A stretch of DNA of 64,000 nucleotides from a virus. Within the stretch, counting starts at the first letter, position 1; every line of letters begins with the position of its first letter. The notes beneath the pieces were generated by a model. The model was not told the DNA's origin. It worked only from the letters and a program-made list of their open reading frames with translations, and searched no databases. The DNA is taken from positions 1-64,000 of the IMG/VR virus record IMGVR_UViG_3300011113_000652; one strand, written 5' to 3'. The position numbers were made by a program, and so were the translations under genes. Positions 27,345 through 56,862 of the stretch are shown here, piece after piece.

Positions 27345-27352
27345 TATAAATA
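27345..27352 (+). promoter_or_regulatory. T4-like late promoter box TATAAATA
   Basis: Perfect match immediately after the TctC stop codon, 135 nt before the DctP-like gene. Transcription from here would include the structured leader. Confidence 0.6.
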
Positions 27353-27357
27353 AATCA

Positions 27358-34554: not shown

Positions 34555-34841
34555 ATTATTACTACGAACTAGACGAACGCACACAAAAAGCCAACCTGGA
34601 ACAGTGGCACCTATGGTGCATGCCCAACTGCTCACCTGCCGAAGGTGGCAGGATGTGTTTTAAAACACACGATGACTTCATGTCCAACAGTCGCAGGGTT
34701 TGGTTGGAAAATGCCAATGGAGTTTACTTGGTCAAACCGCACTGGGGTATATACAGAGGTCGTGTGGATGATCGTGAGTTTACCATGATCAAACTGCGTG
34801 CTCGAACTATCAAATGGTGGGAAGATGAATCTCAAAGTTAA
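34551..34841 (+). CDS. short protein related to the F-x-L-R-W family
   Basis: 96 aa from GTG 34551, which overlaps the previous stop as GTGA. D-D-R-E-F-T-M-I-K-L-R is the family-like motif, followed by an extra A-R-T-I-K-W-W-E tail. Overlaps the halogenase start by 17 nt. Confidence 0.55.
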   Translation: MNYYYELDERTQKANLEQWHLWCMPNCSPAEGGRMCFKTHDDFMSNSRRVWLENANGVYLVKPHWGIYRGRVDDREFTMIKLRARTIKWWEDESQS

Positions 34842-36408
34842 AAAAATTATTGTACTAGGTGGAGGAACTGCTGGCTGGCTCAGTGCTGGATTTCTTAGTA
34901 GCCAACTTCCTGGCATAGAAGTGGTAGTTATTGCCAGCGATCGAGAACCCATCATTGGTGTAGGAGAGTCCACGGTTCCACAGTTCCGAAGTCACATGGA
35001 AAAAATGGGTGTCTCGGAAGATGCCTGGATGCGTGCCAGTGGAAGCAGTTTTAAATATGGTGTTCAGTTCAATAATTGGCGCACTGGTTCAGACACTCGC
35101 TGGCACGGCTTTGGTGATTTTGTCACAGAAAAAATTCTTAAACGCAGTATCAACGAATATGGCAAGCGACGCAGTGTGGCCAAGGATGATTCTGTGCTTG
35201 TAGCTGACTACTGGATTGAAATGCTCAAATCTGGTATGATTTCGGAAGACGAATACTACAAATATGCTTCGGACTCTTATTGGTTGATCAACAATAACCG
35301 TGCTCATAGAGATTTAAGTGGACATCAATACATGAGTCGCGTGCCAGGATATTCCTATCACATGAATGCCTGGAAAGTAGGGCAGGCCATAAAAGATCTT
35401 GTGGCCATGCCCAACGGGGTCAAATACATTGAAGGGCATATCGCCGAAGTCAAGTTCAATGACAACGAAGAAGTGGTTGGATTGATTGACAGCAGTGGAC
35501 AAACACACACGGCAGACTTATACATAGATTGCACTGGTTTCAAAAGACTGTTGATCGGTCCTACTACAAAATGGATATCTTTAAAAGATCGGTTGCCGTG
35601 TGATAGGGTCATCGGTGGTCGCGTTTACTACGACAACGATCAAGAAAAATTTTGTTTTCCCTACACCCGAGCCACTGCTTTAAAATACGGCTGGAGTTGG
35701 TGCATAGCCTTGAGGGATGACATGGGATCTGGCTATGTGTATGATTCCAGGTTTGTGACAGATGAACAGGCCGAAGAAGAATTTAGAGAACATTGGGCCA
35801 AGCAAGGCAAAGAGGTTGATATCAAAGTCCGTCTAAAAATCAACAACGGCATCATGGACAAGTCAGCCCACAGAAATGTTGTAGCCTGTGGACTAGCAGC
35901 CAATTTTCTTGAACCCCTGGAAGCCACGTCTATAAGTTTCACAACACTTATAAATGAACTGGTGGTAGCTGTGTTGAAAAAACACGACTATCATTGGGAC
36001 TACAGACATGTAGAAGTAATCAGCAGACTCATGCATAGAGAAATAAAATACACTGGTGATTTTTTGTATGCACACTATTCGCTTACACAAAGGACTGACA
36101 CAGAATTTTGGAAATCTGTGGGTAAAAATCGCCAAGATGCCATAGACATGTGTCATGGTTGGTTTGGTCTACACCACAGTGATATCTATCGCAGAGAAAA
36201 AGATTTTGATCATACTAGATACAACAAGTATGATTGGGCGCAGATGATCACTAGTATGCGTATATTTGCAGATTGCCCTACACGCAAGATCGATCCTGAC
36301 CTTTTGCCCAGGGCAAAAATGTTTTACGATTACAATGATCAAATGAGCAAAGATGTGTTGCGCTTAGTGCCCACTCACTGGCAACTGTTGCAACACATAA
36401 ATCGATGA
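34825..36408 (+). CDS. flavin-dependent tryptophan halogenase-like protein
   Basis: 527 aa from ATG 34825, the normal size for the family. L-G-G-G-T-A-G-W is the FAD loop; G-V-G-E-S-T is present; S-S-F-K-Y-G-V-Q-F-N-N-W contains the Lys expected to guide hypohalous acid. The W-x-W-x-I-P signature reads W-S-W-C-I-A, with Pro replaced. E-P-L-E-A-T-S near residue 365 is typical. Related genes occur in marine T4-like phages. Substrate unknown; neither a flavin reductase nor an indole pathway is nearby. Confidence 0.85.
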   Translation: MNLKVKKIIVLGGGTAGWLSAGFLSSQLPGIEVVVIASDREPIIGVGESTVPQFRSHMEKMGVSEDAWMRASGSSFKYGVQFNNWRTGSDTRWHGFGDFVTEKILKRSINEYGKRRSVAKDDSVLVADYWIEMLKSGMISEDEYYKYASDSYWLINNNRAHRDLSGHQYMSRVPGYSYHMNAWKVGQAIKDLVAMPNGVKYIEGHIAEVKFNDNEEVVGLIDSSGQTHTADLYIDCTGFKRLLIGPTTKWISLKDRLPCDRVIGGRVYYDNDQEKFCFPYTRATALKYGWSWCIALRDDMGSGYVYDSRFVTDEQAEEEFREHWAKQGKEVDIKVRLKINNGIMDKSAHRNVVACGLAANFLEPLEATSISFTTLINELVVAVLKKHDYHWDYRHVEVISRLMHREIKYTGDFLYAHYSLTQRTDTEFWKSVGKNRQDAIDMCHGWFGLHHSDIYRREKDFDHTRYNKYDWAQMITSMRIFADCPTRKIDPDLLPRAKMFYDYNDQMSKDVLRLVPTHWQLLQHINR

Positions 36409-40138: not shown

Positions 40139-40597
40139 ATGTTAGTGTTACCAGACCATATAGTAGGCAAACCGGTGGGATTTACCTGTAGCACATTTGA
40201 TTTACTACATGCCGGTCATATCCTGATGCTGGCCGAAGCCAAAAGCATCTGTGATTATCTCATAGTGGGAGTGCAGAGTGATCCAACCATAGATCGGCCT
40301 GATGTCAAAAACAAACCTGTGCAAAGCATCGTTGAACGTTATGTGCAACTCAGTGCTGTAAAATTCATTGACGAAATTATTGTTTATGACACCGAAAAAG
40401 ATCTAGAAGATCTACTGATGTTCTTGCCTATAACTATACGCATCATTGGTGAAGAATATCGAGACAAGACATTCACTGGCAAGAATATCTGTGAGGATCG
40501 TGGCGTAAAGATATTCTACAACAGCCGTACACATAGATTCAGCTCTAGTGAACTGCGTCAAAGAACCTACCAGAGCGAACTCAGCAAGAAAAAATAA
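40139..40597 (+). CDS. cytidylyltransferase-like nucleotidyltransferase
   Basis: 152 aa. F-T-C-S-T-F-D-L-L-H-A-G-H (HxGH nucleotide site) near residue 16 and R-T-H-R-F-S-S-S-E-L near residue 133, in place of the usual R-T-x-G-I-S-T-T. Like glycerol-3-phosphate cytidylyltransferase or ADP-heptose synthase; activates a phosphorylated alcohol or sugar. Heads the amino-/guanidino-sugar cassette, so it may supply the activated precursor. Confidence 0.8.
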   Translation: MLVLPDHIVGKPVGFTCSTFDLLHAGHILMLAEAKSICDYLIVGVQSDPTIDRPDVKNKPVQSIVERYVQLSAVKFIDEIIVYDTEKDLEDLLMFLPITIRIIGEEYRDKTFTGKNICEDRGVKIFYNSRTHRFSSSELRQRTYQSELSKKK

Positions 40598-40834
40598 GTG
40601 GTCAAGATTGACTTCCACTCCTTTGGCATGGGCGATGTCGAAGATCCCGAACTGTATGCGGCCTTGCCCTTGGGCGAATTCATGGAAACAGAAAAAGGTC
40701 AATGGATCCGAGCCAACTGTCGAGATCCACAGTATATCATACGTGCAGATCCACACTCATATGGTACTAGAGTGATCGTTTATGGTGAAGTTGAAGAACC
40801 TGCAGCCACCGAATACTTTTTAAAATGGGCATGA
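40598..40834 (+). CDS. short protein related to the F-x-L-R-W family
   Basis: 78 aa from GTG 40598, directly after the previous stop. Ends V-E-E-P-A-A-T-E-Y-F-L-K-W-A, a divergent family ending. F-H-S-F-G-M-G-D-V-E-D at the start. Function unknown. Confidence 0.6.
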   Translation: MVKIDFHSFGMGDVEDPELYAALPLGEFMETEKGQWIRANCRDPQYIIRADPHSYGTRVIVYGEVEEPAATEYFLKWA

Positions 40835-40835
40835 T

Positions 40836-41810
40836 ATGAAAATACTAGTAACCGGAGGTCTGGGATTCATAGGACACAATGTGGTGTCGCGTCTGGAAGC
40901 ACAAGGACATGATGTTGTTATAGCAGATACACAAAGCACATACAACATAGTGCCCGAGTCTGAAATAGCCTACTTGATGGCAGAGCGCCGAGAAAAAATA
41001 CGCACAGACCGGATCTACAGCATAGACATGGTGGATCGTGCTGGTATCCACTGGCTGATTCGTCAGCATAGACCCGATACTGTCGTGCACCTGGCCAGCT
41101 TTCCCAGACAAAAAGTGGTCAATGCCGATGCACCAACTGGCAGCCGAGTCATGAGCGAAGGTCTACTGAACCTGCTGGAGGCCGCAGTGGCCAACTCGGT
41201 GGGCAGATTTGTGTATGCCAGCAGCAGCATGATCTACGGTGACTTCCACGGCACAGGTCCCAACGGCATAGATGAATCTCATGCGTGCCGGCCCTTGGGT
41301 CAGTATGGCATCATGAAGCTGGCCGGAGAGTGGTTGGTCAGAGACTACACAGTACGCACCGGAATGGCACATACCATTGTACGGCCCAGTGCAGTGTATG
41401 GACCCTTGGATGTGGAGGATCGTGTGATCAGCCAGTTTCTTATCCGGGCCATGCGCGGTCAAGAAATACAGGTGCGCGGTGCCGATGAACTATTAGATTT
41501 TACCTATGTGGGCGACACTGCCGATGGAATTGTGGCCGCCGCACAGAGCCCCAACGCCGAAAATAAAACCTACAATATCACACGTGGCCATAGCAGGACC
41601 TTGCTGGAAGCAGCACAGATAGCAGTAAACTTGGCACAACGTGGCACCATACGGATCCTGGATCCTGATGCGGCTTTTCCCAGCCGAGGTCAGTTAAATA
41701 TCTCAGCGGCACAACGAGATTTTAATTTTGAACCAGGTGTAGACATAGAACAAGGATTCAGAGTCTATTACACCTGGTTAAGTCAGTCTAATTACTTTGG
41801 TATAAAATGA
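40836..41810 (+). CDS. NAD-dependent epimerase/dehydratase
   Basis: 324 aa. T-G-G-L-G-F-I-G NAD loop, V-V-H-L-A-S, Y-A-S-S-S-M-I-Y-G with the catalytic Ser, Y-G-I-M-K Tyr/Lys, and V-R-P-S-A-V-Y-G-P. Full-length extended SDR acting on a nucleotide sugar. ATGA overlap with the amidinotransferase. Confidence 0.88.
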   Translation: MKILVTGGLGFIGHNVVSRLEAQGHDVVIADTQSTYNIVPESEIAYLMAERREKIRTDRIYSIDMVDRAGIHWLIRQHRPDTVVHLASFPRQKVVNADAPTGSRVMSEGLLNLLEAAVANSVGRFVYASSSMIYGDFHGTGPNGIDESHACRPLGQYGIMKLAGEWLVRDYTVRTGMAHTIVRPSAVYGPLDVEDRVISQFLIRAMRGQEIQVRGADELLDFTYVGDTADGIVAAAQSPNAENKTYNITRGHSRTLLEAAQIAVNLAQRGTIRILDPDAAFPSRGQLNISAAQRDFNFEPGVDIEQGFRVYYTWLSQSNYFGIK

Positions 41811-42823
41811 TAAATTCTAACTTTGGTTTTACTTCCTTAAAAGAAATTTGGTTGGGTGACTGTTACCCAGAGTCATACTATGATCATTTACCAAATGAAA
41901 TTGCTGATCCTTTCAGACAAATAACGCAGTGGACCAAAGAAGATACTGGCCGTTTGCAGAGATTTTTAGAAAGTTATGGCATTACTGTACGGAGACCTCA
42001 ATTCACAAAAATAGAAAACTATCTTGACAGTCGCGATAATTTGGTTAAACCACCTATTACACCTAGAGATCATTACTTGGTGCTAGGAAACACCTTATAT
42101 TCATTACACAATCAACTTAAAAATGATCCTTGGCTACACTGGTTAGAATACTATCGCACGCAGAAATACGACGTACAAGAACCCAAAGATCAACCAATTA
42201 ACTGTGTATGCCCACCATCTGTGGTTCGCATAGGAAGAGATCTATTCATTGATAAAGGAGCACACGAACACATGTGGGGATTTGTCTGTCAATGGATGGT
42301 AGGAGCAGCAAATGAATATCGAGTAAACATTTGTGACACAACTGGACACAGCGATAGTGTGTTTTGTCCAGTAATGCCAGGAGTAATTGTGACCTCACAT
42401 TACAAAACTGATTATTCTCAAAGTTTCCCTGACTGGGAAATTTTTCATCTACCAAAGAATCTACACAATTTTAACAATCCAAAAGACTGGTCGACATATG
42501 ACAGCAAAATAGATTCAAATAAAGCATTTTCGGATCATATAATAAAAAATGCCAGTAATTGGGTTGGCACGTTCAGTGAAACAGTAGCTGAAGTTAATAT
42601 GTTGGTAATCGATGAAAAAAATATTGTTGCTATGAAAGATTATCCTCCGTTGACAGAATGGCTTTATCAACGTGGTATTACCGTACATTTTTTTGATTTT
42701 AAAACGAGAAGTTTCTGGGATGGAGGCTGGCACTGTCTTACTTTAGACATTCACAGGCAAGATCACAAACTTGATTTGTTTCCCGATCGAGGCGATAACG
42801 GTGTATATTGGAGATTGAAGTGA
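41807..42823 (+). CDS. glycine/inosamine-type amidinotransferase
   Basis: 338 aa. K-P-P-I-T-P-R-D near residue 82 is the family's P-R-D motif, G-H-S-D-S-V-F contains the catalytic His/Asp, and G-G-W-H-C-L-T-L-D near residue 307 has the catalytic Cys of the G-G-x-x-C-x-T motif. Moves an amidino group from arginine to an amine, as in creatine or streptomycin pathways (StrB1). Coupled to an epimerase before and a DegT aminotransferase after, so an amino-sugar or aminocyclitol acceptor is likely. AT-rich. Confidence 0.85.
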   Translation: MINSNFGFTSLKEIWLGDCYPESYYDHLPNEIADPFRQITQWTKEDTGRLQRFLESYGITVRRPQFTKIENYLDSRDNLVKPPITPRDHYLVLGNTLYSLHNQLKNDPWLHWLEYYRTQKYDVQEPKDQPINCVCPPSVVRIGRDLFIDKGAHEHMWGFVCQWMVGAANEYRVNICDTTGHSDSVFCPVMPGVIVTSHYKTDYSQSFPDWEIFHLPKNLHNFNNPKDWSTYDSKIDSNKAFSDHIIKNASNWVGTFSETVAEVNMLVIDEKNIVAMKDYPPLTEWLYQRGITVHFFDFKTRSFWDGGWHCLTLDIHRQDHKLDLFPDRGDNGVYWRLK

Positions 42824-43902
42824 CCGGATCATTGACTATTTCATTTACTGGTCTAAAAAAACAGTATAACAACTTACGCACTGAAATCTTAGATGTCACT
42901 GATATAGTGTTGCGTAGCGGTCATCTTATGGACGGCAACCATACCGCTGAGTTTGAAAGCTGGTTGGCCAAGAAAAATGGTGTCAAGTATGCGGCCACCT
43001 GTCATAGTGGTACACATGCTTTAGAAATCATTGCCGAATACTATGCGTCGCAAAAGTTTTGGCCCAATCCTCCTAGAGTGCTGGTTCCGGCCATGACCTA
43101 TCCAGCCACAATCAATGCTTTCATGCGTGTGGGCTGGGACGTGGTCATAGTTGACACTGACTACCACGGCATCTTGGATCTGCGCAAGATAGATCGTGCT
43201 ATGAGTGTACAGGCCATAGTAGCAGTAGGCCTGTATGGGCATGCGCTGAACAAACATGAGTGGCTCAACAACAATGCTGCCGTGATTATTGAAGATGCCG
43301 CACAACATTGGCTTAGTTATGGTTGTAGAAGAATTGCAAATGCTGCTGCTATAAGTTTTGATCCCATGAAGAACTTGAACAACTACGGCAACGGTGGCGC
43401 CATTGTCACAGACGATGTAAACCTGTTAGAGTATGCCCGTAGTTCTCGTAACAATGGCAAACCCACACACATAGACACCGGATCAAACAGCCGTATGAGC
43501 GAGGTTGATTGTGCGCAGATGTTGGTCAAGACCGGTCACATTGACACCTGGCAGGCTCGTAGAGCCAAGATCAGTGCTTACTGGATGCAACGTCTCAAAG
43601 GCACTGCGGTACGTAGTTTGATAGATGAAGGCAATTATCAACATCATGCCTATCACAAGTTTGTGATCGAAGTTGGTAATCGTGATATACTACAACGTAA
43701 TTTGGCCTTGCATGGCATTGAAACACGCATACACTATCGTGAACCCTTGCACGAGCTACCAGCCTATCAGCACTTGCCAGGACCCGACGTACTAAGTGCG
43801 GCATCGGCCATGGCACGTAGAGTGCTGACCTTGCCCTTGTACCCTGAACTGACTGATTTAGAAGTTGAATATATTGTGGATCAAGTGTTGGATAACATCT
43901 AA
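42820..43902 (+). CDS. DegT/DnrJ/EryC1/StrS-family aminotransferase
   Basis: 360 aa from GTG 42820, which overlaps the previous stop as GTGA and has GGAG 6 nt upstream. C-H-S-G-T-H-A-L near residue 58 (PLP phosphate site), E-D-A-A-Q near 165 and S-F-D-P-M-K-N-L with the PLP Lys, followed by G-N-G-G-A-I-V-T. Family members aminate keto-sugars or scyllo-inosose. It would create the amine that the amidinotransferase modifies. Overlaps the convergent 539-aa-ORF gene by 4 nt. Confidence 0.88.
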   Translation: MTGSLTISFTGLKKQYNNLRTEILDVTDIVLRSGHLMDGNHTAEFESWLAKKNGVKYAATCHSGTHALEIIAEYYASQKFWPNPPRVLVPAMTYPATINAFMRVGWDVVIVDTDYHGILDLRKIDRAMSVQAIVAVGLYGHALNKHEWLNNNAAVIIEDAAQHWLSYGCRRIANAAAISFDPMKNLNNYGNGGAIVTDDVNLLEYARSSRNNGKPTHIDTGSNSRMSEVDCAQMLVKTGHIDTWQARRAKISAYWMQRLKGTAVRSLIDEGNYQHHAYHKFVIEVGNRDILQRNLALHGIETRIHYREPLHELPAYQHLPGPDVLSAASAMARRVLTLPLYPELTDLEVEYIVDQVLDNI

Positions 43903-45488
43903 TCTGCCACAAGATTTCTTTTCAACAAAGCATACGAAGCCAACCAGGCCCAGTCGTAGCTCTTGCGCAGTTCTACTATATCTCCGTTGACCGCATCGTA
44001 GTATTCCACAGCGTCTTGGGCACCTTTCATGCTCCAGGTCCCATCGGAGTCATCCGATTCGAGCCAACGATAAAGTCTAAACTCACTTTCAACATCGATG
44101 TTGCCTTTTAACTTCAAGCATTCGCGAAAAGCAGTGCGCCAGGCCATCCAAGGTGTATGGGCATATTCAGCAGTACCAGACAGTATGGGCACAACTTCGT
44201 GAGCACTATCTAGTGTAAAGTCTAGACCTTGACCGGCATTGTCCAACACTAATTTTTTATTGTATGCAATCATAGCCTGATGCCCATAAGTCAATCCTGT
44301 GATGGAATTGTGCGCATGGAATATATAGTGCTTGGGCTTCTGCAATCTGTCAGGTTGCCATGACCAATCAAAGTCCGGATTCACACGCAGTTTGGCAAAT
44401 ACAGCAAAGAACCAAGGGGTGGTGCTGAGTCGGGCCGCGGCATGATAAGCTGCCACACGTCCAATGACGCCTCGGCTGACCACCACACGATTGTCTCGAC
44501 TGGCTGTTGCTGAGGATAGGGCACGTAGGTTATCTAGGGCGTTGGGCTCACCGTTTTCAATGAACACGATATCCAAAGGCTCTTCACTACCATGACGCCA
44601 GGTCTTGTCAATGTGGGGATAATCATATACTTGCTGATGCATGTAATTTTTTGTTTCCCTTGGTACTATCACAACACTGGCCCCAGGTGTTAGTGGAACC
44701 ACAGTCTTGGTCTGTTCTCGCCACAGGCTGACCGTAGGCTCAAAGCCTGTGGCTCCACCGGTGCTGAACATGACCAATGGAGTCCTAAACTCGTGCTCAC
44801 GTATGGCTACCACATGTGTGTCATGCTCATGTTCTACCACGGGCACGGGCCATCTCGGCACACTTATATCCTCAACAAAATGCAAGGTATCAAACCATTC
44901 CAGCAGTTTTATGTTTTTGCTTTTTTCTAAAAAACTAGGCACATGCACATAGAATGTGTCTCCAAACTTTTGTGTGCCACTTGCAAACACATGTAACATG
45001 TCGGTCTGCCACTCATTGGGATGCCAGGTAAAGTCAAACATGGTGTAGTCACAAACACTGCTGACTACCCAAACATATTCATGATCAACTTTGGCCAACA
45101 CTCTGCGCAGGGTACCTAGATAGTCGCTGATGTATCTGGTGCTCATCTCACAAGGCACTGTGATGCCGGTTCCGTGATCGATACCTATGACAGGTACAGA
45201 ACTTTTTCTTGGCAACACCACATGTTTGCGATTGACCTCTGCACCACCCAATTTTGGTACAAGATACGTGCCGCCGTTGTCTTGATGTTGGCTGGGCCAA
45301 GCATGTGTCTGATCAGCTTCCCAGGGCACCGGTTCCCAAAGAAAATCATGTGTGCTATAGTCAGTTAAATAGTTCGTCCACCAAAAATACCTTGTTCTCG
45401 AAAGTTGCCGTGCATGTTCAACAGATTCCGCTGCCTGTTCATGGGCAAATAGATTTGGTTTTGTTCCAGAATAAAAAACGTCAAACAT
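43899..45488 (-). CDS. glycosyltransferase-like protein with internal repeats
   Basis: 529 aa from ATG 45488 (an earlier in-frame start at 45518 exists). Two tandem modules at residues ~20-95 and ~130-215 both contain a Y-S/T-x-x-D-F-x-W-x-P element. The C-terminal half has L-D-I-V-F-I-E-N-G-E-P-N-A-L-D-N followed by A-A-Y-H-A-A-A and T-T-P-W-F-F. That pattern is familiar from large predicted transferases with D-E-P-N-A motifs. Its start codon overlaps the divergent gene's start. Confidence 0.5.
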   Translation of the reverse strand: MFDVFYSGTKPNLFAHEQAAESVEHARQLSRTRYFWWTNYLTDYSTHDFLWEPVPWEADQTHAWPSQHQDNGGTYLVPKLGGAEVNRKHVVLPRKSSVPVIGIDHGTGITVPCEMSTRYISDYLGTLRRVLAKVDHEYVWVVSSVCDYTMFDFTWHPNEWQTDMLHVFASGTQKFGDTFYVHVPSFLEKSKNIKLLEWFDTLHFVEDISVPRWPVPVVEHEHDTHVVAIREHEFRTPLVMFSTGGATGFEPTVSLWREQTKTVVPLTPGASVVIVPRETKNYMHQQVYDYPHIDKTWRHGSEEPLDIVFIENGEPNALDNLRALSSATASRDNRVVVSRGVIGRVAAYHAAARLSTTPWFFAVFAKLRVNPDFDWSWQPDRLQKPKHYIFHAHNSITGLTYGHQAMIAYNKKLVLDNAGQGLDFTLDSAHEVVPILSGTAEYAHTPWMAWRTAFRECLKLKGNIDVESEFRLYRWLESDDSDGTWSMKGAQDAVEYYDAVNGDIVELRKSYDWAWLASYALLKRNLVAD

Positions 45489-46590
45489 GATTAGAATAGA
45501 TGAAATATATAATAACACATTTTGGCCATGGTTGCAACAGAATCGGCCAGGTACAAGATTGTTTTTCTGTGATCCATTTGGTCATACTGATCCAGAACAT
45601 CTATTTAATCTAAGCAATCCAACAGCCAAAGAAACCAACTATGTGTTCATGCATGATCAAGAACCGGCGGATGCTGGCCTATTTGATGCTTTGTTCCAAG
45701 ATGTTCTAAGAAGAAATACCGATGTATGGTGGCCCAACAAACCCAATCCTTTTGGACATGTTATAGTCAGCGAACAAGGTGAACAGGTTGAACAGTTGTG
45801 TGCAAAATATGAATGGACTGCTCATTATTATTTTTATCATGGCTGGGCTTGTTTGGATTGGTTTCGAGGGTACGATCGAACATTTTTAATTCCTCGGGCT
45901 CAAGATCGGTGTCCTACAAAAACTTTTATGAGTCCTAACAGGATTGTAGGGGGGCAACGTGATCACAGGGTGTTGTTTCTTTATCACGTATTCAAACAAG
46001 GACTACAAAATAATCATATATCAGCACCAAGAATATGCCAATTTGAACATGTGGATATCAGTAGTATAGCACTAAAGTATACCAACGTATACCAGGATAT
46101 AACCGAAGTATTCGGTGCAGCCGAGTTGCCAAGATTATTTGCCGGGGAAGATACCCAGGAAATGCATAGTTATCAACTAGGTAACTTTGTAGAATCTGCG
46201 GATAGCTTGGTATATGTGCCCACAGAAACCGTATACTTTGGTCGCAGAACTCACCTCACAGAAAAAACATTCAAGGCCATAGTTCTAGAAATGCCATTTG
46301 TGTTAGTGGCACCTGCTCACAGCCTTGAATACCTGCGCAAGTATGGATTCCGAACATTTGATTCGGTGTTTGATGAAAGTTATGATTTGGAAACCAATGA
46401 TATTCGCAGAATAGAACGTGTAACACAATTATTAAAAGATCTAGACAATCTAAGCATGCATGAACGCCAACAAATCCACCAAGCATGTTTACCCATTGTC
46501 CAACACAATTACAATCATTTTTATGGTGGTGACTTTGCGAATATACTTTGGAAAGAAATGACTAGCATGCTCAGGGGGTTATGTGTTTAA
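45487..46590 (+). CDS. glycosyltransferase-like protein of the T-E-K-x-x-K family
   Basis: 367 aa. Near the C-terminus L-T-E-K-T-F-K-A-I-V then Y-G-F-R-T-F-D-S-V-F-D-E-S-Y-D. The N-terminal half contains F-M-H-D-Q-E-P-A and V-S-E-Q-G, plausible GT-B acceptor-domain elements. Head-to-head with the previous gene, and overlapping the next paralogue by 8 nt. Confidence 0.6.
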   Translation: MIRIDEIYNNTFWPWLQQNRPGTRLFFCDPFGHTDPEHLFNLSNPTAKETNYVFMHDQEPADAGLFDALFQDVLRRNTDVWWPNKPNPFGHVIVSEQGEQVEQLCAKYEWTAHYYFYHGWACLDWFRGYDRTFLIPRAQDRCPTKTFMSPNRIVGGQRDHRVLFLYHVFKQGLQNNHISAPRICQFEHVDISSIALKYTNVYQDITEVFGAAELPRLFAGEDTQEMHSYQLGNFVESADSLVYVPTETVYFGRRTHLTEKTFKAIVLEMPFVLVAPAHSLEYLRKYGFRTFDSVFDESYDLETNDIRRIERVTQLLKDLDNLSMHERQQIHQACLPIVQHNYNHFYGGDFANILWKEMTSMLRGLCV

Positions 46591-47776
46591 ATTTGTATTT
46601 GATAAGCGTAACCATGACAGACCCTATCCAAATCTAGCACCCATGATGGACAACCCACACCAAAGTTATCATGGCATGGGCGACGAACATCCTTTTATAG
46701 TTCCGTGCCGGCTCTTGTATTATGCTAAAGACCACGGATATCCTTGCCAAATTTCTTATTTGGATGAACCCATACCCGATCAGGCCTGGTACCCGGTGGG
46801 GCTGGGATTTTTCCATTTTGAAATAGATTACTTTGGCATGATGTCAGAACATGTAAAAGATCTTTTGCGTTCACGAGCCTTGCGAGCATTGTTTTATTAT
46901 CATGAAGGGGACAGCCCATATCACGAAAAATCCAGACTGGATCAACTTTGTCGCCAACATAATTTACCAATGGATTGTTATAAATTTGTCAGTGGTAATA
47001 CTGCTGCTGATCAAATTCCAGGTTTCTGTTGGTTTCCAGACCATGAACTGTTCTATTGGCGTAACAGTGTCAAATGGAATGATCGCAGCATGCCCGGCGT
47101 CAGTTATCATAACAGGCCCAGGACTCGAAGATATACTGCACTCAATCGTATACACAAGTGGTGGAGAGCCACCATTATGACCGAGCTAAAGCAACAAGGT
47201 ATCCTGGACAACAGCCACTGGAGTTACAACAACATAGATCAAAATGATCAATGGCATGACAATCCCATTGAATTGTGGAGATTTGATAATTTGGAACAAC
47301 GTCTTAAAGATTTTGTAGATCAAAGTCCATACACCTGTGACCATTTAGATTCCGTTGGACACAACAGCCATTGGTTGTTTGTGCCCGAACACTTTGACGA
47401 TTCATATTGTAATTTGGTATTGGAAACCTTGTATGATGCCGAACAAAGCGGTGGCGCCTTTATAACTGAAAAAATATTCAAACCCATTAGACACGCACAA
47501 CCATTTGTGGTATTTGGCACTGCGAATACCCTGGTGACCTTGCGCAATCTTGGGTATCAAACATTTGATACTCTATTAGATAATTCTTATGACAGCGAAA
47601 TCAATAATACTACTCGTTTTATAAAAACCTTAAATACAATCAAACAGATGAATCAGACCAGTTTACATGAATTTTATGTCAGTTGTAAAGATCAACTGTT
47701 ACACAACCAAGAATTATTTTTAGCATCAAAATATCCAAGATTACAAATGCTTGCCCAAAAACTCAATCATGATTAA
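46583..47776 (+). CDS. glycosyltransferase-like protein of the T-E-K-x-x-K family
   Basis: 397 aa from GTG 46583, behind a good AGGGGG. I-T-E-K-I-F-K-P-I-R-H-A-Q-P-F-V-V-F-G then L-G-Y-Q-T-F-D-T-L-L-D-N-S-Y-D. F-Y-Y-H-E-G-D-S-P corresponds to the D-Q-E-P region of the upstream paralogue. Acceptor unknown. Confidence 0.6.
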   Translation: MFKFVFDKRNHDRPYPNLAPMMDNPHQSYHGMGDEHPFIVPCRLLYYAKDHGYPCQISYLDEPIPDQAWYPVGLGFFHFEIDYFGMMSEHVKDLLRSRALRALFYYHEGDSPYHEKSRLDQLCRQHNLPMDCYKFVSGNTAADQIPGFCWFPDHELFYWRNSVKWNDRSMPGVSYHNRPRTRRYTALNRIHKWWRATIMTELKQQGILDNSHWSYNNIDQNDQWHDNPIELWRFDNLEQRLKDFVDQSPYTCDHLDSVGHNSHWLFVPEHFDDSYCNLVLETLYDAEQSGGAFITEKIFKPIRHAQPFVVFGTANTLVTLRNLGYQTFDTLLDNSYDSEINNTTRFIKTLNTIKQMNQTSLHEFYVSCKDQLLHNQELFLASKYPRLQMLAQKLNHD

Positions 47777-48800
47777 CAGCTACACCTCCTGGCAACCACT
47801 TGAAGCAGTCATAGTTGGACGTGCTTATAGTCCTGATTATTTTGATTTTTTGGAGAACACACAGGTCAGGAATCAATTACAGCAAATCCTGGCAGAGACT
47901 GCCGAGGATTTAGATAACTTGCAACACATCATAGAACAGTATGGAGCCAAAGTTTATAGACCTGATTTGCCCGATAAACAAGATTTTATAATAAATCAAA
48001 TCAATAATCAAGTTCCCTTGCCACCGCTGACTCCACGAGATTGGCAAATAACACTGGGCCAAAAACTTTTGAGAATCATTGCTCACCATGGACTGAATAA
48101 TATCTGCAATAATTTTCCTGATCAAATAATAAATCCTCACTATCAACCCAAGAATCGTTATCACTGGGATCCCAATTGCATACTCAATGGTGCATCAGCC
48201 AGTTGCATTGTGCGTGTAGGGCGAGACATATTCTTTGACAATTCAGACATGTTACGACCAGAACAAAGTCGCTGGATAGTTGACAATGTTTTGGGACCAG
48301 AATATCGCATACACGAAGCTGTTACTGATGGACATGGCGATGCTGTGTTTGCCATATTGAAACCAGGTGTGATACTTTCTAGCAAACACGATCAAAATCT
48401 AAATTTTGAAAAAGATTTTCCAGGCTGGCAAGTGCTACGTGTCATGGACTCCAGCATAGATGCAGCCATGACCGCAGGCAAGTTTCGTCATGAAAATGGT
48501 CCGCAGGCTTGGTATGTTCAAGGGCAAACACCTACACCAGAGTTTACTGAGTACGTTGACACTTACTTGAACGAATGGACCGGCTTTGTGGCCGAAACAG
48601 TGTTTGATGTCAACTGCTTGGTCCTGGATGAAGAGAATGTGATATTTGGTGCCTACAACAAGAATGTTTTTGATTTCTGCGAGAAAAACAGAATCAATCC
48701 TATCATTTCAGAACTGCGCCACAGCTATTTTTGGGATGGTGGCATCAGTTGTTGCACTCAGGATCTCAGACGTCGCGGCGGTCTTGAGACTTATCTATAA
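47769..48800 (+). CDS. amidinotransferase, second copy
   Basis: 343 aa from ATG 47769 (8-nt overlap upstream). L-P-P-L-T-P-R-D motif, D-G-H-G-D-A-V-F with catalytic His/Asp, and G-G-I-S-C-C-T-Q-D with the catalytic Cys. Diverged from the copy at 41807, so probably acts on a different amine. Its 3' end overlaps the convergent minus-strand gene by 6 nt. Confidence 0.85.
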   Translation: MINSYTSWQPLEAVIVGRAYSPDYFDFLENTQVRNQLQQILAETAEDLDNLQHIIEQYGAKVYRPDLPDKQDFIINQINNQVPLPPLTPRDWQITLGQKLLRIIAHHGLNNICNNFPDQIINPHYQPKNRYHWDPNCILNGASASCIVRVGRDIFFDNSDMLRPEQSRWIVDNVLGPEYRIHEAVTDGHGDAVFAILKPGVILSSKHDQNLNFEKDFPGWQVLRVMDSSIDAAMTAGKFRHENGPQAWYVQGQTPTPEFTEYVDTYLNEWTGFVAETVFDVNCLVLDEENVIFGAYNKNVFDFCEKNRINPIISELRHSYFWDGGISCCTQDLRRRGGLETYL

Positions 48801-49650: not shown

Positions 49651-50781
49651 TTAAAATATCAAAGATGGCCAGAGTTGCGCAAAGGTATGTTTTTGTTTTA
49701 GGATAGTTTCTTGCTTCAGATGAAATTCGGCTGGAGTTACGGTACTTGGCGATTCTGTATAGTCCAGTCTTTGTTGATATTGTTTCAGTGTGTCTAGGCT
49801 TAGATTATGGTAACCGCTCCATTTATCAATCACAGTAGCAATTTCTTGTTGAGCCAGTTTCCGCAAATGCAATGGCAGACGTTTGACATCTAGTTCGTAA
49901 GGATTAGTGAGTTCGCACCAAAATATATCCAGGTCATTTTGTTCACAGAATTCATAGTATTCAACCAAATCAAATGCACAGTAAATTGAATAAGCCGGAT
50001 GAGCAACAGGCCTGATGCCATGTGACTTGACCAAATCAATGTTGTGCAAAAACAGCGACCAGTCACAGCCGGCACGAACATATTCAAATTTGTCACGTTG
50101 CACGTTGTCGAAACTGATCAGCCAACTGACATTGGGCCAATTTTTCAGTTCTTGATAAACAGGATTTCGAGATAAATCCACAGCCAAATTGGTTGTAATC
50201 ATAACATTCACTTGTTGTGGATCAAGTTGTTGCAAAAACTCTGGCAGGCTTTTTTGCAACAAAGGTTCACCGCCTCCTAGGCTGATACCTTTAAGGGTAT
50301 CTTTGTGTTCCTGTGCTAGTTCGATTAGATGAACATGATCATTTTTGATTATCTGTATTGGCTTGTTCAATGCAGCCTGCCAGGCTGTGCTGGTTTGAGG
50401 ATTACAATAGGTGCAAGTTAAATTGCACAAACTACTCCAATTCACAGTAAGATCCGTTAGTTGGAAATAATTGATGTCACGGTCAATGCTATCTGCAACT
50501 TGGTCACCCATGGTCATCATCATCCTGGCACTTGAGCCAGTCTGAGCTTCATTTGTTTTGCAGTTGGTACACAATGGGTGCCATTGACCTGCTGCTATGG
50601 TTTCTTTGAGACCGAGATGTTCTGGACCATTGATAATTTCTTGTATTGTTTTTTGATTCACGTTGCCCAGTTTTAGATCATCTACATGACTGTTAAGACA
50701 AGGCAACACACGACCAGATTGATCAATGTTCAATGAGGTCCACGGACATGGGCAAAATGTTGGGCTTTGAGATATCAGCAT
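49651..50781 (-). CDS. radical SAM protein, twitch-type
   Basis: 376 aa. C-N-L-T-C-T-Y-C near residue 119 holds the SAM [4Fe-4S] cysteines, and L-G-G-G-E-P-L follows. Before it, F-C-P-C-P-W and L-P-C-L-N-S, with C-T-N-C about 45 residues further on, suggest an auxiliary cluster domain. First strand of the barrel L-T-V-N-W-S-S-L. Such proteins recur in marine phages; reaction unknown. Confidence 0.8.
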   Translation of the reverse strand: MLISQSPTFCPCPWTSLNIDQSGRVLPCLNSHVDDLKLGNVNQKTIQEIINGPEHLGLKETIAAGQWHPLCTNCKTNEAQTGSSARMMMTMGDQVADSIDRDINYFQLTDLTVNWSSLCNLTCTYCNPQTSTAWQAALNKPIQIIKNDHVHLIELAQEHKDTLKGISLGGGEPLLQKSLPEFLQQLDPQQVNVMITTNLAVDLSRNPVYQELKNWPNVSWLISFDNVQRDKFEYVRAGCDWSLFLHNIDLVKSHGIRPVAHPAYSIYCAFDLVEYYEFCEQNDLDIFWCELTNPYELDVKRLPLHLRKLAQQEIATVIDKWSGYHNLSLDTLKQYQQRLDYTESPSTVTPAEFHLKQETILKQKHTFAQLWPSLIF

Positions 50782-50784
50782 GGT

Positions 50785-52251
50785 CTAAGACAGCACTTTG
50801 ATTTTGTAGAGTTTTTCAAATCTATCAGCGTCAGCACGATCGTTGACCATGGGTTCGCCGCGTATGTTCAAACTGGTGTTCAACAACATAGGGCAACCTG
50901 TGGCCGTATACCAGGCCTCTAAGAGCGATCTAATGCCTGAGCCGTCAGCCTCAACAGTCTGTACTCGGCTAGTGTCGTCCACATGACAGATAGCAGGGTA
51001 TAAGTCAGGACTGCGACAAGTTGCGACTGACTGCATATAAGGACTACAACTCCAACCCCGGGGCATATCAAAAAGTTCATGCACATGCTCTGCCAGGATA
51101 ACCGGTGCAAACGGTCTAAACTTTTGCCTACGTTTGATCTCATTGACTTGGTCCTTTATATCTGATCCTCGGGGATCGGCAAGGAGACTTCGATTTCCAA
51201 GGGCTCGAGGTCCAAATTCTGCTCGACCACTAGCGACACCGACGATTCTATCACTTTGTAAATGATCAACGAGGGCGCGAACAGGATATTCTCCTGGGAT
51301 TTCATGGCCAAGGTACGCATCTGTCCAGCGTAGACGTCTTCCGTGGGCCAATGCGGCAGCACCAAGGCTGTTGCCAGCATCGCCAGGGCAAGGCATGATC
51401 CAAATGTTTTCAAAATATTCACCGAGTTTTCTATTTGCAAGACAGTTCAAAGCCACGCCGCCCTGATAGACTAGATTTGAGCTCCAGTCTAACTCCCGGG
51501 CACGACGCATAACACTATATATCAGTTCTTCTGCTAAAACTTGTGCAGATGCCGCAATATCTTCATTGTGGGCCAACCACAGCCACGCAGGATCAATGCC
51601 CACATGCAGGTTATCTTCCAGCAGGGTACGACACTCTTCCACATATAGCGGCTGACCATAGGCACTCATGCCCATGGTAATGTATTCTTCGTCTAGCGGG
51701 TGTAGGCCAATGCGCTGAGTAACGGCACTATAAAACAGCCCAATGCTCCGGGGATAAGTTTGGCTCCAAAGTTTCTTATACCTTGCTTGACCTTGCGGAT
51801 CATATTTTGCTCCCCAGATTGAAATGGTATCAAACTCACCTATGGCATCTATGACCACACAGGTGGCACGATCATAGGCACTGGTTTGAAAACCTGCTGC
51901 CGCATGGCACAGGTGATGACTGTAAGTTTTTATTTGTCTGGGCGGATGTTGCAACCAGTCTCCCAGTTGATTTCGTAGCACTTGATTGACAGTGATGTTT
52001 GACCAATCTATGCCCTGACCACTCACAAAATTACGTGCTTGTTTTAACCAAGGGCGCTCGTAATAAGCAATGGTATCTATAGGGTATTCGCAGAACTCAT
52101 TTAACATGCTGAAATGAATATCAGCATCGTTTTTGTTTTTTGAATATCGTTCGCTATGACCAGCAAACACAATTTCACCGTCGCTGCGTAACAGCGTGGC
52201 GGCCGCATCATGAAATCCGGCACTGAGTCCCAGTATATACTGATGCTTCAT
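50785..52251 (-). CDS. NodU/CmcH-family carbamoyltransferase
   Basis: 488 aa. L-G-L-S-A-G-F-H-D-A-A-A near the N-terminus is the YrdC/Kae1-like ATP site; Y-S-H-H-L-C-H-A-A-A contains the metal histidines and D-E-E-Y-I-T-M-G-M-S-A-Y-G is typical. C-terminal domain with G-R-A-E-F-G-P-R-A-L-G-N-R-S and L-N-T-S-L-N. Transfers a carbamoyl group from carbamoyl phosphate to a hydroxyl, as in Nod factors, cephamycin and tobramycin. Slightly shorter than bacterial members (~560 aa). Confidence 0.9.
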   Translation of the reverse strand: MKHQYILGLSAGFHDAAATLLRSDGEIVFAGHSERYSKNKNDADIHFSMLNEFCEYPIDTIAYYERPWLKQARNFVSGQGIDWSNITVNQVLRNQLGDWLQHPPRQIKTYSHHLCHAAAGFQTSAYDRATCVVIDAIGEFDTISIWGAKYDPQGQARYKKLWSQTYPRSIGLFYSAVTQRIGLHPLDEEYITMGMSAYGQPLYVEECRTLLEDNLHVGIDPAWLWLAHNEDIAASAQVLAEELIYSVMRRARELDWSSNLVYQGGVALNCLANRKLGEYFENIWIMPCPGDAGNSLGAAALAHGRRLRWTDAYLGHEIPGEYPVRALVDHLQSDRIVGVASGRAEFGPRALGNRSLLADPRGSDIKDQVNEIKRRQKFRPFAPVILAEHVHELFDMPRGWSCSPYMQSVATCRSPDLYPAICHVDDTSRVQTVEADGSGIRSLLEAWYTATGCPMLLNTSLNIRGEPMVNDRADADRFEKLYKIKVLS

Positions 52252-52349
52252 TTATAGATAAAAGGATCCCGCTTGCGAAGTTCTTTCAACTTTTTACGAT
52301 ATCTTATTTCCAATTTGACGCGATTGATTATGTTTTTTATCCAAGACAT
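52248..52349 (-). CDS. 33-aa basic peptide coupled to both neighbours
   Basis: Begins 13 nt inside the end of the preceding gene and its TGA overlaps the carbamoyltransferase ATG. M-S-W-I-K-N-I-I-N-R-V-K-L-E is an amphipathic helix, then R-Y-R-K-K-L-K-E-L-R-K-R and a D-P-F-I-Y-K end. I remember similar D-P-F-I-Y endings in small proteins of marine phages. Translational coupling on both sides argues that it is real. Confidence 0.65.
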   Translation of the reverse strand: MSWIKNIINRVKLEIRYRKKLKELRKRDPFIYK

Positions 52350-53392
52350 TTGATTTGTTTCTCCATGTAGTCAGGGTCACTCCAAGTGTATTCATACCCG
52401 GCACTGGCCGAGCTGGTGCGTACGGCATGAACATCAAGGTGTGTATTTAATTGGTTCCAGATCTGTCGGTAATCTTCTGTGCCAAAGCTGCGGATCAAAT
52501 CCACTTGGCCTACTTGTGGATGACCAATGGTAAGACTTTTATCTTCAGGATCAATGCTGTTGACTATTAACCATTCACGAAACTCCTTTAGCTGTTTGAT
52601 CTGCCAGGGGAATGTGCCGGGATTATTGGCCCACTCTATGTCAAAGTCGCCGGCAGCTTCAGTTTGTGCTTTTAGACTAGACGTGGTCAATTCATCTATC
52701 CTGCTGTCACGTCCTTCGTCCTGGAACACTTCCCAGTGATGTTTGCCTACCGCTTTATTCACACCCACATACACTCCGCCTAGGCTACGGTTGATGGTTT
52801 CTACGCCAAACAGTTCGTAATCTTCTGAATCCAACACAAACCTTGGAGCTGATAGCCAGCACATGAGTTGGCTGGGTCTTTGCCATTCAGGTGCTGTGTT
52901 TTTTTTGCGCCACGATAACTGCCAGCTTTCAAATTCGTGACACAGTAGATTTAATTGTCTGATGTGCCAGCGTGTTGCATTGTCGGCACGCCAGTAATAA
53001 TCACTGATGTGTCCGCTGCCACCTTGCAAGTCTTCAAAGTATCTGTGCAGTTGATTGAAATGATTGCGATTGATTCCGCCCTGATCATCCACACTGTTGG
53101 ACATGTCAAAATGATCGTCGATGCGATATCCTATGCTTGACTGGTTGATAGCTTGTATGCTGAGATTTATTTGTTCCAATAGATAAGGGCCATTTCTAGG
53201 ACCGTCGGCAAATCCAAAAAAACAATAGTTCTTTTCCAGGTGATAGTTTTGTGACAACAAATTATTCAATGCCAGCAACCATTTACGACTGAGACTGTTG
53301 TCATATACGTTGATATACACACGCAGTATGTCTTGTGCGTTACCCAAATCTACTTCAACAACATCAAGTAGCAATTGCTTGGTACCAGTCAT
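52337..53392 (-). CDS. conserved phage hypothetical protein
   Basis: 351 aa from ATG 53392 (a longer frame to 53443 overlaps the upstream gene by 80 nt). F-F-G-F-A-D-G-P-R-N near residue 55, H-E-F-E-S-W mid-protein, F-D-I-E-W-A and a C-terminal I-G-H-P-Q-V-G-Q-V-D-L-I-R-S-F-G-T followed by L-N-T-H-L-D. I recall this family from marine phages near radical-SAM genes. Function unknown. Confidence 0.6.
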   Translation of the reverse strand: MTGTKQLLLDVVEVDLGNAQDILRVYINVYDNSLSRKWLLALNNLLSQNYHLEKNYCFFGFADGPRNGPYLLEQINLSIQAINQSSIGYRIDDHFDMSNSVDDQGGINRNHFNQLHRYFEDLQGGSGHISDYYWRADNATRWHIRQLNLLCHEFESWQLSWRKKNTAPEWQRPSQLMCWLSAPRFVLDSEDYELFGVETINRSLGGVYVGVNKAVGKHHWEVFQDEGRDSRIDELTTSSLKAQTEAAGDFDIEWANNPGTFPWQIKQLKEFREWLIVNSIDPEDKSLTIGHPQVGQVDLIRSFGTEDYRQIWNQLNTHLDVHAVRTSSASAGYEYTWSDPDYMEKQIKCLG

Positions 53393-54653
53393 ATATGTCT
53401 TTATTGGATTGTAATATATTGGCCATGGTATAACTATCACCACGTATTTGTTCTAATTTTAACACACGACGCTTGCCTTTCGCAAGTTCCTCTTGACAAG
53501 TATCTGGCCATTGTTCTGCAAAAGTAGGGCGTGATTTTAATTTCAACAACACATCTTGTAGGGCACTATCTGGCAAGTTAGGTACCAGACTGTCTACAGT
53601 AGCATCTAGCAACTGTCTTGGCAGGGACAGGGGACTCATTATGATGTCAGGTGTGAAACTGAATACAACTTTGGCCAGGATGTCCACATCCAGATCGTTG
53701 GCTAGACGTTGTATATTCTCAACTTCAAACAAGCCAGGCAAGGTCAAGGTAAAATCAATGCGCATTTGTCTGCGATGACGAGCCTGTTTGAGCCCTTGTT
53801 CAAAATTTATCCTCCAGGCCCCATAGTCCAATCCGGTCCGGATGTATTCTCCTGTGGCGCCTGTTCCATCGAGGCTGGCGCAGATTTGCCAATCACGTAG
53901 ATGTGCCAGCACATCACGATAAAGATTAACACCGCGGTAATCCACACGGCTAAGGTTAGTATTGTATCTTGCATAAACACCGGGTCCATCTCCTAGTTCA
54001 ATTATCCTGCGCATATAGCGCCAGTGTTGTTCATACATGAGTGGTTCACCGCCTACCCAGTATACTTCTTCTACTCTGTGTTGTTCAACCGCTTCGGCAA
54101 ACTCTGCTTCGATCTGCGTGTCTTGAAATTTGCTGATCTGTTCACGCACTTCGGGTCGCATCCAGTTGTTTTTGGAGTTGGTAAAATCAATCATGTTGTG
54201 TTGCCGCTGTTCAGTTTCCCAACTACTGCTCAACATGTCGCCACACATGCGGCATTTAAAATTACATAAATTGCTAAATCTATAATCCCAACTCACAGGA
54301 CGTACTTTGGTGAAGCCATTTTCGTCAGTGGCACGCATACATTCTTCATACTTGTGGTCAAACAATCTATTGAAATAATCACGATACACATCTGTGTTCA
54401 ACAGTTTTTTATTGCATACCTCACACTCGGGCAGAGTTTCTCCACGCATCATTCTCAATCGCACACTGCGCATGTGAGGGCTATTCCAATGTTCATCCAG
54501 ACTCATTGGTTGGTAAACACCTGTGCCAGTTGCTGTATCTATGTACTGTTCAAAGTTTTGCGCAGGTTCACGGCTGGCACAACACATGCGCCGTTCGGTC
54601 TGTGGACTGAGATAGGTGTGTGTCCATGGTGCCATGCACAAGGTCTCAGACAT
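53364..54653 (-). CDS. radical SAM protein, twitch-type
   Basis: 429 aa from ATG 54653 with GGAG 7 nt upstream. C-N-F-K-C-R-M-C-G radical-SAM motif near residue 130, W-V-G-G-E-P-L-M, and N-terminal C-M-A-P-W and C-C-A-S plus C-E-V-C cysteines for an auxiliary cluster. Same architecture as 55611 and 57588. Substrate unknown. Confidence 0.82.
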   Translation of the reverse strand: MSETLCMAPWTHTYLSPQTERRMCCASREPAQNFEQYIDTATGTGVYQPMSLDEHWNSPHMRSVRLRMMRGETLPECEVCNKKLLNTDVYRDYFNRLFDHKYEECMRATDENGFTKVRPVSWDYRFSNLCNFKCRMCGDMLSSSWETEQRQHNMIDFTNSKNNWMRPEVREQISKFQDTQIEAEFAEAVEQHRVEEVYWVGGEPLMYEQHWRYMRRIIELGDGPGVYARYNTNLSRVDYRGVNLYRDVLAHLRDWQICASLDGTGATGEYIRTGLDYGAWRINFEQGLKQARHRRQMRIDFTLTLPGLFEVENIQRLANDLDVDILAKVVFSFTPDIIMSPLSLPRQLLDATVDSLVPNLPDSALQDVLLKLKSRPTFAEQWPDTCQEELAKGKRRVLKLEQIRGDSYTMANILQSNKDIYDWYQAIAT

Positions 54654-55602
54654 TTGCAAACTCCAGTATTGGATATACTATTTCTTGGATAATTCGATTT
54701 TCTACTAATTCATAATTAAAAAAATGATTATGATTATGCTCAATTCTTTCTATTGTTGTGTTATCATATTTGTTAGGTACAGAATTAGCAACATTATTTT
54801 TTATAATTGTCAAGCGTTGTAGAGGATCTTCACACAAATCATAGCTTTCGTCGAACAGATTGTTAAATGTCGCAAATCCCAACAAATGTAGCCGTTGCAA
54901 AACTCCAACTTGGCCGTACACTACAAAAGGATGATAAAAAGCCAGTGGTTTAAATATTTTTTCAGTTAACTTTACAGTTGCTCCTGCAGTCAAATTGATT
55001 GAACTTTCAACTACTACACTAAAAAAAGTATCATCATACCAGGCTGGATTAAAATATCGTTGGAAATTACTTGAACGAATTTCTAAGTCGTGTGGCAAAT
55101 CGTCGGGCAGGTATATACCATTTTCTACATAACTGTAAATCATATTCGGCAAATATGCCGATAGTGCATTGATTACTTGGTCTTTTTCGGGGCTACGCAA
55201 TCGGATAGGCATAAATGCTAACTTTTTATATGTTTTCTTGGGGCGATAAGAATCATAGCCCAAATACTTGTACCACATACTTTCGTTGTACCAAAACCAA
55301 TTTTTATTAATTAAAAATAAACTCTGATCGTCGAATGGCCGACAAAAATCCCATAAACAGTCATATACTATTCTAACTCCTTGATCACGCAATTGACAAT
55401 GCCAAGTAGCATTATCAAACGGGTTAACTACACACAGACAAGTGTCAGGATTGTATGTATCATCAGGGTCGTAAAATACAACATTGAAATAACGACTAAA
55501 AAGTTCTTTAGTGTAATTGGCAAAAAACGACGACGGATAGCTCTTGTCAACGATTAAGGTAATTTTGTGCATAGACGATGAAGTAGAGTTTTCTTTGTTC
55601 AT
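54646..55602 (-). CDS. glycosyltransferase-like protein of the T-E-K-x-x-K family
   Basis: 318 aa (ATG 55602; ATG 55572 is an alternative). L-T-E-K-I-F-K-P-L-A-F-Y-H-P-F-V-V-Y-G then L-G-F-A-T-F-N-N-L-F-D-E-S-Y-D. AT-rich. Overlaps the downstream radical-SAM gene by 8 nt, so a coordinated role is likely. Confidence 0.6.
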   Translation of the reverse strand: MNKENSTSSSMHKITLIVDKSYPSSFFANYTKELFSRYFNVVFYDPDDTYNPDTCLCVVNPFDNATWHCQLRDQGVRIVYDCLWDFCRPFDDQSLFLINKNWFWYNESMWYKYLGYDSYRPKKTYKKLAFMPIRLRSPEKDQVINALSAYLPNMIYSYVENGIYLPDDLPHDLEIRSSNFQRYFNPAWYDDTFFSVVVESSINLTAGATVKLTEKIFKPLAFYHPFVVYGQVGVLQRLHLLGFATFNNLFDESYDLCEDPLQRLTIIKNNVANSVPNKYDNTTIERIEHNHNHFFNYELVENRIIQEIVYPILEFANV

Positions 55603-55610
55603 TTTTATCG

Positions 55611-56861: not shown

Positions 56862-56862
56862 G

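Follow-up and report, generated by a model that had tools for sequence, protein, structure and literature searches.

Organization of the locus

The DNA analysed here is a window of 64 kb out of the 70,905-bp virus record IMGVR_UViG_3300011113_000652, and the element in question is a group of putative sugar-modifying genes, starting with those at 40139-43902, which encodes two amidinotransferases (g058 and g063) close to a single DegT-type sugar aminotransferase. A first-pass annotation had described a cytidylyltransferase, an epimerase/dehydratase, an amidinotransferase and a DegT aminotransferase as co-directional, the last three joined by ATGA/GTGA overlaps. The four open reading frames were indeed found in this interval, all on the + strand, and Pfam and PDB matches assigned their families, the second being an epimerase-family short-chain dehydrogenase/reductase (SDR). 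The overlaps were read in the sequence: the TGA of the SDR and the ATG of g058 share ATGA at 41807-41810, and the TGA of g058 and the GTG of DegT share GTGA at 42820-42823. This GTG start aligned to the ATG start of DegT in relatives devoid of g058. The second amidinotransferase expected at 47769 was g063, and the carbamoyltransferase and radical SAM genes said to follow were also present, placed on the opposite strand. The features of the locus are:

40139-40597, + strand: g055, cytidylyl/nucleotidyltransferase of the HxGH family (PF01467 CTP_transf_like, 4.9e-13)
40598-40834, + strand: g056, small ORF that separates g055 from the SDR and is conserved ahead of g057 in many relatives (32-86% identity)
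40836-41810, + strand: g057, SDR nucleotide-sugar epimerase-type enzyme (PF01370, 1.3e-46)
41807-42823, + strand: g058, amidinotransferase 1, an optional insert between SDR and DegT (PDB phmmer matches to AGAT/SxtG; AlphaFold2 (AF2) model with Foldseek)
42820-43902, + strand: g059, DegT/DnrJ/EryC1/StrS sugar aminotransferase dependent on pyridoxal phosphate (PLP) (PF01041, 2.6e-59)
43899-45518, - strand: g060, conserved and fixed neighbour of DegT and g061, with no Pfam, PHROG or NCBIfam match
45487-46590, + strand: g061, GT-B fold glycosyltransferase (AF2 model with Foldseek)
46583-47776, + strand: g062, paralogue of g061 (GT-B family), sometimes absent (iterated profile family GT61)
47769-48800, + strand: g063, amidinotransferase 2, the conserved one of the locus (PDB phmmer: AGAT 56.5 bits, StrB1 41)
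49651-50781, - strand: g065, SPASM/twitch radical SAM protein that opens an array (NF033640, 197 bits, exceeding the cut-off)
50785-52251, - strand: g066, NodU/CmcH-type carbamoyltransferase, a recurrent partner (PF16861, 1.6e-48; PF02543; phrog_1601, 2.1e-90)

Both amidinotransferases lie at most four genes from the sole DegT, with permutation P values of 0.01 in this record and 0.02 in the relative G001, which are not independent, as these two genomes share a common ancestry. The minus-strand array of SPASM/twitch radical SAM genes detected with Pfam (g065, g068, g070-g072, g075 and g076) extends over 49651-63976 and up to 65370 of the record, and radical SAM arrays repeatedly accompany amidinotransferases elsewhere, both in other phages and on two contigs of Bdellovibrionia metagenome-assembled genomes (MAGs).

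Amidinotransferases with an atypical active site

Neither g058 nor g063 had a match in Pfam or NCBIfam, and the PHROGs comparison returned solely phrog_25854, of unknown function. Against PDB sequences, phmmer related g063 to AGAT and StrB1, with the scores listed above, and to HsvA and SxtG, while g058 matched AGAT, SxtG and HsvA at E-values of ~1e-6 to 1e-7 and StrB1 at 0.002 (33 bits for AGAT versus 21 for StrB1). A profile built from 16 phage relatives retrieved from the PDB exclusively AGAT, SxtG, HsvA and StrB1. Moreover, the AF2 model of g058 (pLDDT 82.9, pTM 0.87) gave in Foldseek SxtG, StrB1, HsvA and AGAT at ranks 1-7, with DDAH from rank 8 (2e-10) and ADI and other deiminases later, at much weaker E-values. 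A placement with arginine deiminases, looked for by Foldseek and profile comparison, was not found; nor did PF02274, the profile named ADI, match anything in the record. An arginine deiminase or DDAH identity was rejected for both proteins since transferases lead these searches. The StrB1 subfamily was also rejected, as StrB1 ranked last or last but one among the four PDB relatives.

The catalytic triad of AGAT includes a His-orienting Asp, D254 (PMC3684758). Among 134 distinct aligned amidinotransferases, including six canonical ones, the catalytic Cys (C407) was conserved in all 131 sequences with a residue at that position, the His (H303) and D305 in 134/134, and D170 in 131/134. The g058 protein keeps D88, H181, D183 and C310, and the window enzymes share with AGAT, StrB1, SxtG and HsvA the pentein transferase fold, the catalytic Cys and His and the two guanidinium-binding Asp residues. 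They differ from these enzymes, however, at the D254 position, where Asp was observed solely in the six canonical sequences: by sequence alignment, all 69 g063-type proteins have Ser there, and those of the g058 type have Cys, Asn, His or Ser (C135 in g058 itself). The Cys/His/Asp set foreseen by the first-pass annotation is thus present in its Cys and His and lacks the D254 equivalent. Another distinctive trait of the g058/g063 branch is an FWDGG motif before the Cys, and its identity over the model to the AGAT/StrB1/SxtG/HsvA family is 17-18%. When 84,980 genomes of bacteria and archaea were scanned for the conserved motifs of the branch, only five loci were obtained, indicating a mainly viral branch, although the scan requires the exact motif and more distant cellular relatives would be missed.

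Based on the structure and profile matches together with the residue pattern, g058 and g063 are transferase-family penteins (AGAT/SxtG/HsvA/StrB1 fold family) with one atypical active-site residue. Membership in the AGAT/StrB1 family stands at the level of fold, and identical chemistry is not claimed.

A conserved kernel and a variable slot

Scans of viral contigs with g058, g061, g059 and g063 provided 165 loci (numbered L), all of them on contigs from metagenomes, some 300-364 kb long in a few cases at the upper end; many are repeat observations of the same population. The g060 gene was found in 78 of the 80 g061 loci, the remaining two being cut at the contig edge, and DegT was upstream of g060 in 66 of the 70 g061 loci with visible upstream sequence; the other four had room for one gene only, which was not DegT. 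Of the 76 loci that were not truncated, 72 had a g063-type amidinotransferase after the GT-B genes, the exceptions being L100, L105, L139 and L162, and a g063 orthologue was carried by 9/9 large phage genomes (75-79% identity). The carbamoyltransferase g066 comes after g063 in most relatives. The conserved kernel of the locus is DegT – g060 – GT-B glycosyltransferase(s) – g063 – carbamoyltransferase.

In contrast with g063, g058 was placed between SDR and DegT in only four lineages (the window, L002/L012, L003 and L013). In L163-L167, whose DegT is 91-93% identical to that of the window, the SDR and DegT genes are adjacent and overlapping, as in other relatives devoid of g058, and in L004-L011 a g058 homologue is found near QueE, UGD or g055, unaccompanied by DegT or a g057-type SDR. 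The cassette proposed in the first-pass annotation was right in including DegT, but g058 was rejected as its core amidinotransferase, as it is an optional insert and the conserved enzyme is g063. The cytidylyltransferase had been counted as a member as well, and it proved not to be consistently linked: g055 lies near g058 in L002/L012, L004, L008 and L011 and is absent beside the cassette in L003 and L013, for which reason it was rejected as a core gene. The SDR itself is replaced in some loci, by a Gfo/Idh/MocA oxidoreductase in L122 (PF01408; L119 is similar), by another SDR in L123 and L152, and by a radical SAM gene in L109 and L154. Since the partner enzyme of DegT varies between relatives, its position resembles an exchangeable slot for sugar synthesis, next to a DegT–g060–GT-B–g063 kernel that stays fixed.

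Among other contexts, L044 presented at 9173-11609 a DUF6614 protein, an amidinotransferase, a protein of ~152 aa and a weakly ATE_C-like protein, and the small trio of this context, devoid of the amidinotransferase, was found in G001 at 149.9-151.2 kb.

Sugar enzymes beside the amidinotransferases

The catalytic residues of the SDR, DegT and cytidylyltransferase were invariant across orthologues at ~48-93% identity. The best PDB matches of DegT g059 were 7b0d, DesV and QdtB, with WbpE further down; DesV and QdtB are sugar aminotransferases, and 7b0d, a close relative, was deposited as a glutamine–scyllo-inositol transaminase. The PLP-binding Lys of g059 (K188, counted from the TTG at 42808) was invariant in 52/52 sequences. 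The SDR g057 preserves GxxGxxG and YxxxK in its orthologues and presents SSSM[IV]YG in 21/21 sequences. This motif is of the epimerase type, while 4,6-dehydratases carry TDE. The epimerase half of the earlier epimerase/dehydratase assignment was thus retained, and an NDP-hexose 4,6-dehydratase was rejected, the TDE motif being missing and the epimerase-type one present in all 21 sequences.

The HxGH and SS motifs of g055 were invariant in seven sequences. Its best PDB match was the ethanolamine-phosphate cytidylyltransferase 3elb (66 bits), followed by 1coz, and its score against TIGR02199 was 80 bits, below the cut-off; judged by such comparisons, its substrate could be ethanolamine-phosphate, glycerol-3-phosphate or heptose-1-phosphate. 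As for the glycosyltransferases, the AF2 model of g061 (pLDDT 87.9) retrieved at Foldseek E<=0.001 exclusively GT-B enzymes, including SenB (4.5e-5) and OtsA/Tps1, with TarM and FucT weaker. The glycan setting envisaged by the first-pass annotation is supported by the GT-B glycosyltransferases, the carbamoyltransferase and UGD.

A StrB1-subfamily enzyme paired with DegT in other phages

A different amidinotransferase is encoded in L018-L021 and further contigs, its gene overlapping or lying next to a short DegT-like gene of ~195 aa. This phage enzyme preserves D254, H303, D305 and C407 in 84/84 sequences and scores 210 bits to StrB1 versus 127 to AGAT, so that by sequence the enzyme of L019/L265 clearly belongs to the StrB1 subfamily. 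The short DegT was found at most three genes from the StrB1-type gene in 67 of 79 loci and in 20 of the 26 non-redundant loci that remained after the removal of near-identical sequences; within six genes, it was present in 25 of these 26. UGD, GT-B genes, a 2-oxoglutarate (2OG)-Fe oxygenase-like gene and a carbamoyltransferase recur at these loci, and the StrB1-type set is carried by the cultured Synechococcus phage S-SCSM2R, where the annotations read 3-amino-5-hydroxybenzoic acid synthase for DegT and inosamine amidinotransferase for the amidinotransferase.

The StrB1-type gene was also present in 8 of the 9 large genomes harboring the g063 kernel (L265: 226.8 bits to StrB1), where it usually adjoins the 2OG-Fe-like gene and, in two cases, UGD as well; within the short stretches fetched from these genomes, DegT was not seen near it. 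A quick tree, used for main clades only and devoid of the characterised StrB1 and AGAT, placed the StrB1-type enzymes in a clade apart from g058/g063, and consequently the pairing of aminotransferase and amidinotransferase has been seen with two different enzymes. The streptomycin-type StsC/StrB1 logic invoked by the first-pass annotation survives in this linkage, which recurs at an independent StrB1-subfamily locus, but not in the assignment of g058 and g063, which are not of the StrB1 clade.

Proposed function and alternative explanations

From the observed enzyme families, active-site conservation and conserved linkage, an activity, an acceptor, an order of steps, a final location and a product can be proposed. 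The balance tilts slightly in favour of a locus that makes a guanidinylated, and so cationic, amino sugar and attaches it to a phage-encoded glycan. A host nucleotide sugar would be altered by the SDR g057, or by another oxidoreductase in relatives, and the resulting keto sugar would be transaminated to an amino sugar by DegT g059. The g063 enzyme, here together with the inserted g058, would then transfer the amidino group from arginine to the amine so formed or to a related one, the GT-B enzymes g061/g062 would add the sugar to a glycan, and g066 would carbamoylate it. The glycan would most likely be borne by the tail or virion, or be a surface polymer of the infected cell.

Several points weigh against this proposal. 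Both enzymes of the window have lost the D254 equivalent, which makes arginine:amine transfer less than certain, and the epimerase motif of g057 does not readily account for the keto sugar that DegT would need. No PF00483 sugar-1-phosphate nucleotidylyltransferase was found in the nine large relatives. The synteny among relatives is inherited and not a set of independent observations. In other phages, the neighbours of FWDGG-type amidinotransferases are DUF6614, radical SAM or QueD genes, DegT being absent, so a sugar need not be the substrate of every member. Most of the doubt concerns the acceptor and what the loss of the D254-equivalent Asp means.

It is unlikely, although it is the strongest of the competing explanations, that the amidinotransferases act on a small non-sugar amine, such as an amino acid, a polyamine or ethanolamine phosphate, and that they lie near DegT and glycosyltransferases simply because all are carried in one cargo region. 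Characterised relatives do use glycine, lysine, polyamines and a saxitoxin precursor, AmtA producing homoarginine (PMC4887976), and g055, which best matches an ethanolamine-phosphate enzyme, travels with g058 in L004, L008 and L011 in the absence of DegT and SDR; however, g063 stays with DegT and GT-B genes in most loci while other genes swap, and a second, different subfamily independently pairs with DegT. Quite improbable is a loss of transferase activity, by which g058 and g063 would be divergent penteins that hydrolyse or bind arginine: the replacement of the His-orienting Asp of AGAT by Ser, Cys, Asn or His would fit, but the Cys, the His and both guanidinium-binding Asp residues are conserved, the nearest structures are transferases, with deiminases and DDAH next at much weaker E-values, and the Ser fixed in all g063-type proteins suggests function rather than decay.

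We consider it very improbable that a guanidino group is added by these enzymes to phage DNA or to a 7-deazaguanine base, even though the window encodes QueD-type (PF01242, 368-817) and QueE-like (8596-9465) proteins, with QueD close downstream of an amidinotransferase in L039, L042, L044 and L062 and QueE close upstream of one in L004, L007 and L011. Neither a PF01702 tRNA-guanine transglycosylase nor a PF00303 thymidylate-synthase-type hydroxymethylase was found in the nine large relatives, QueC matches were marginal and in G001 fell on a NadE-like gene, and several GT-B paralogues, the carbamoyltransferase and DegT fit glycans better. More improbable still is a peptide- or protein-modifying system formed by the radical SAM/SPASM array and an amidinotransferase, with the sugar genes as bystanders. 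Such modules recur in Campylobacter phages (PMC2853527), marine contigs and the two Bdellovibrionia MAG contigs, but the radical SAM genes of the window lie on the opposite strand, relatives keep the glycosyltransferases while the slot beside DegT varies, and no precursor peptide was recognised, a systematic search for one not having been made. Creatine synthesis (GATM/GAMT), a pathway discussed in an ocean-virus survey (PMC11360552), was rejected because no methyltransferase is fixed in the kernel, and antiphage defence was set aside, PADLOC having given only weak viperin-like radical SAM matches. Nothing favours the cyclitol product suggested in the first-pass annotation, and no PF07994 inositol-1-phosphate synthase was found in the nine large relatives, although the host could supply a cyclitol source.

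Genomic setting and host

The source is a large freshwater T4-like phage. A DNA comparison of 1-25000 and 41807-48800 found no close sequenced phage; the relative G001 (197 kb) is T4-like in its baseplate wedge, portal, sheath and tube genes. Its cluster r103-r131 directly abuts the same-strand genes r132-r135, one of which gives weak virion-structural and tail-fibre matches, r135 encoding 4,817 aa. A T4-like, tail-adjacent glycan region is thus present in G001, while the window record is too short to show location. The window encodes seven tRNAs, a phage transfer-messenger RNA (tmRNA) of betaproteobacterial type at 17525-17854 (RF01850, 129.8 bits; ARAGORN tag ANASNDEVFALAA), and TctC- and DctP-type solute-binding proteins at 26379-28441; the tmRNA type and these proteins suggest a betaproteobacterial host. 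Elsewhere in the window there are a tryptophan-halogenase-like flavoprotein (34798-36408; phrog_2928, 4e-97), a Gcw_chp protein (PF09694, 17893-18672), and several GDSL/SGNH-like paralogues that carry a GDS-like motif close to the N terminus (11325-12658, 16071-16832 and 20077-20913), one of which matches DUF6071.

Relation to known systems and significance

Phage amidinotransferases are already known. In the Campylobacter phages CP220 and CPt10, according to a report of 2010, interchangeable clusters combine radical SAM genes and a putative glycine amidinotransferase, for which a metabolic benefit, and not a sugar, was proposed (PMC2853527). They resemble the window in a distantly T4-like genome and in an amidinotransferase placed among radical SAM and NDP-sugar transferase genes (PMC2853527), but no DegT is annotated beside it and the sequence is very distant. 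The hypervariable region of pelagimyophages, also T4-like, holds LPS-type genes next to the tail fibres, a position comparable to that of the G001 cluster; it includes glycosyltransferases, rfaE, UGD and radical SAM genes, and a modification of the host O-chain was proposed, while neither an amidinotransferase nor a guanidino sugar is mentioned in the available portion of that account (PMC7029224). Streptomycin biosynthesis (StsC/StrB1) shares the combination of DegT aminotransferase and amidinotransferase, of which true StrB1-subfamily/DegT pairs exist in other phages, but the window enzymes are encoded beside GT-B and nucleotide-sugar enzymes. A search of open papers, which is weak evidence of absence, returned no phage-made guanidino sugar, and the link between phage amidinotransferases and amino-sugar synthesis appears to be new.

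A broader reading, more tentative than that of the locus itself, is that two distinct amidinotransferase subfamilies occur in many large aquatic phages, a StrB1-like one and an FWDGG branch with Ser/Cys in place of Asp, each coupled to DegT and producing guanidino sugars on virions or infected-cell surfaces. If true, the guanidino sugar would be of a type not described for any virus in the open papers searched, and a function would be provided for phage amidinotransferases that have so far been listed as glycine amidinotransferase genes with no role. The DegT pairing offers one testable prediction spanning many phages, with a StrB1-type version available in the cultured S-SCSM2R. Possible effects of a cationic guanidino sugar on the virion or the infected cell are a change in adsorption, a block to superinfection, or resistance to enzymes of the host or of phages.

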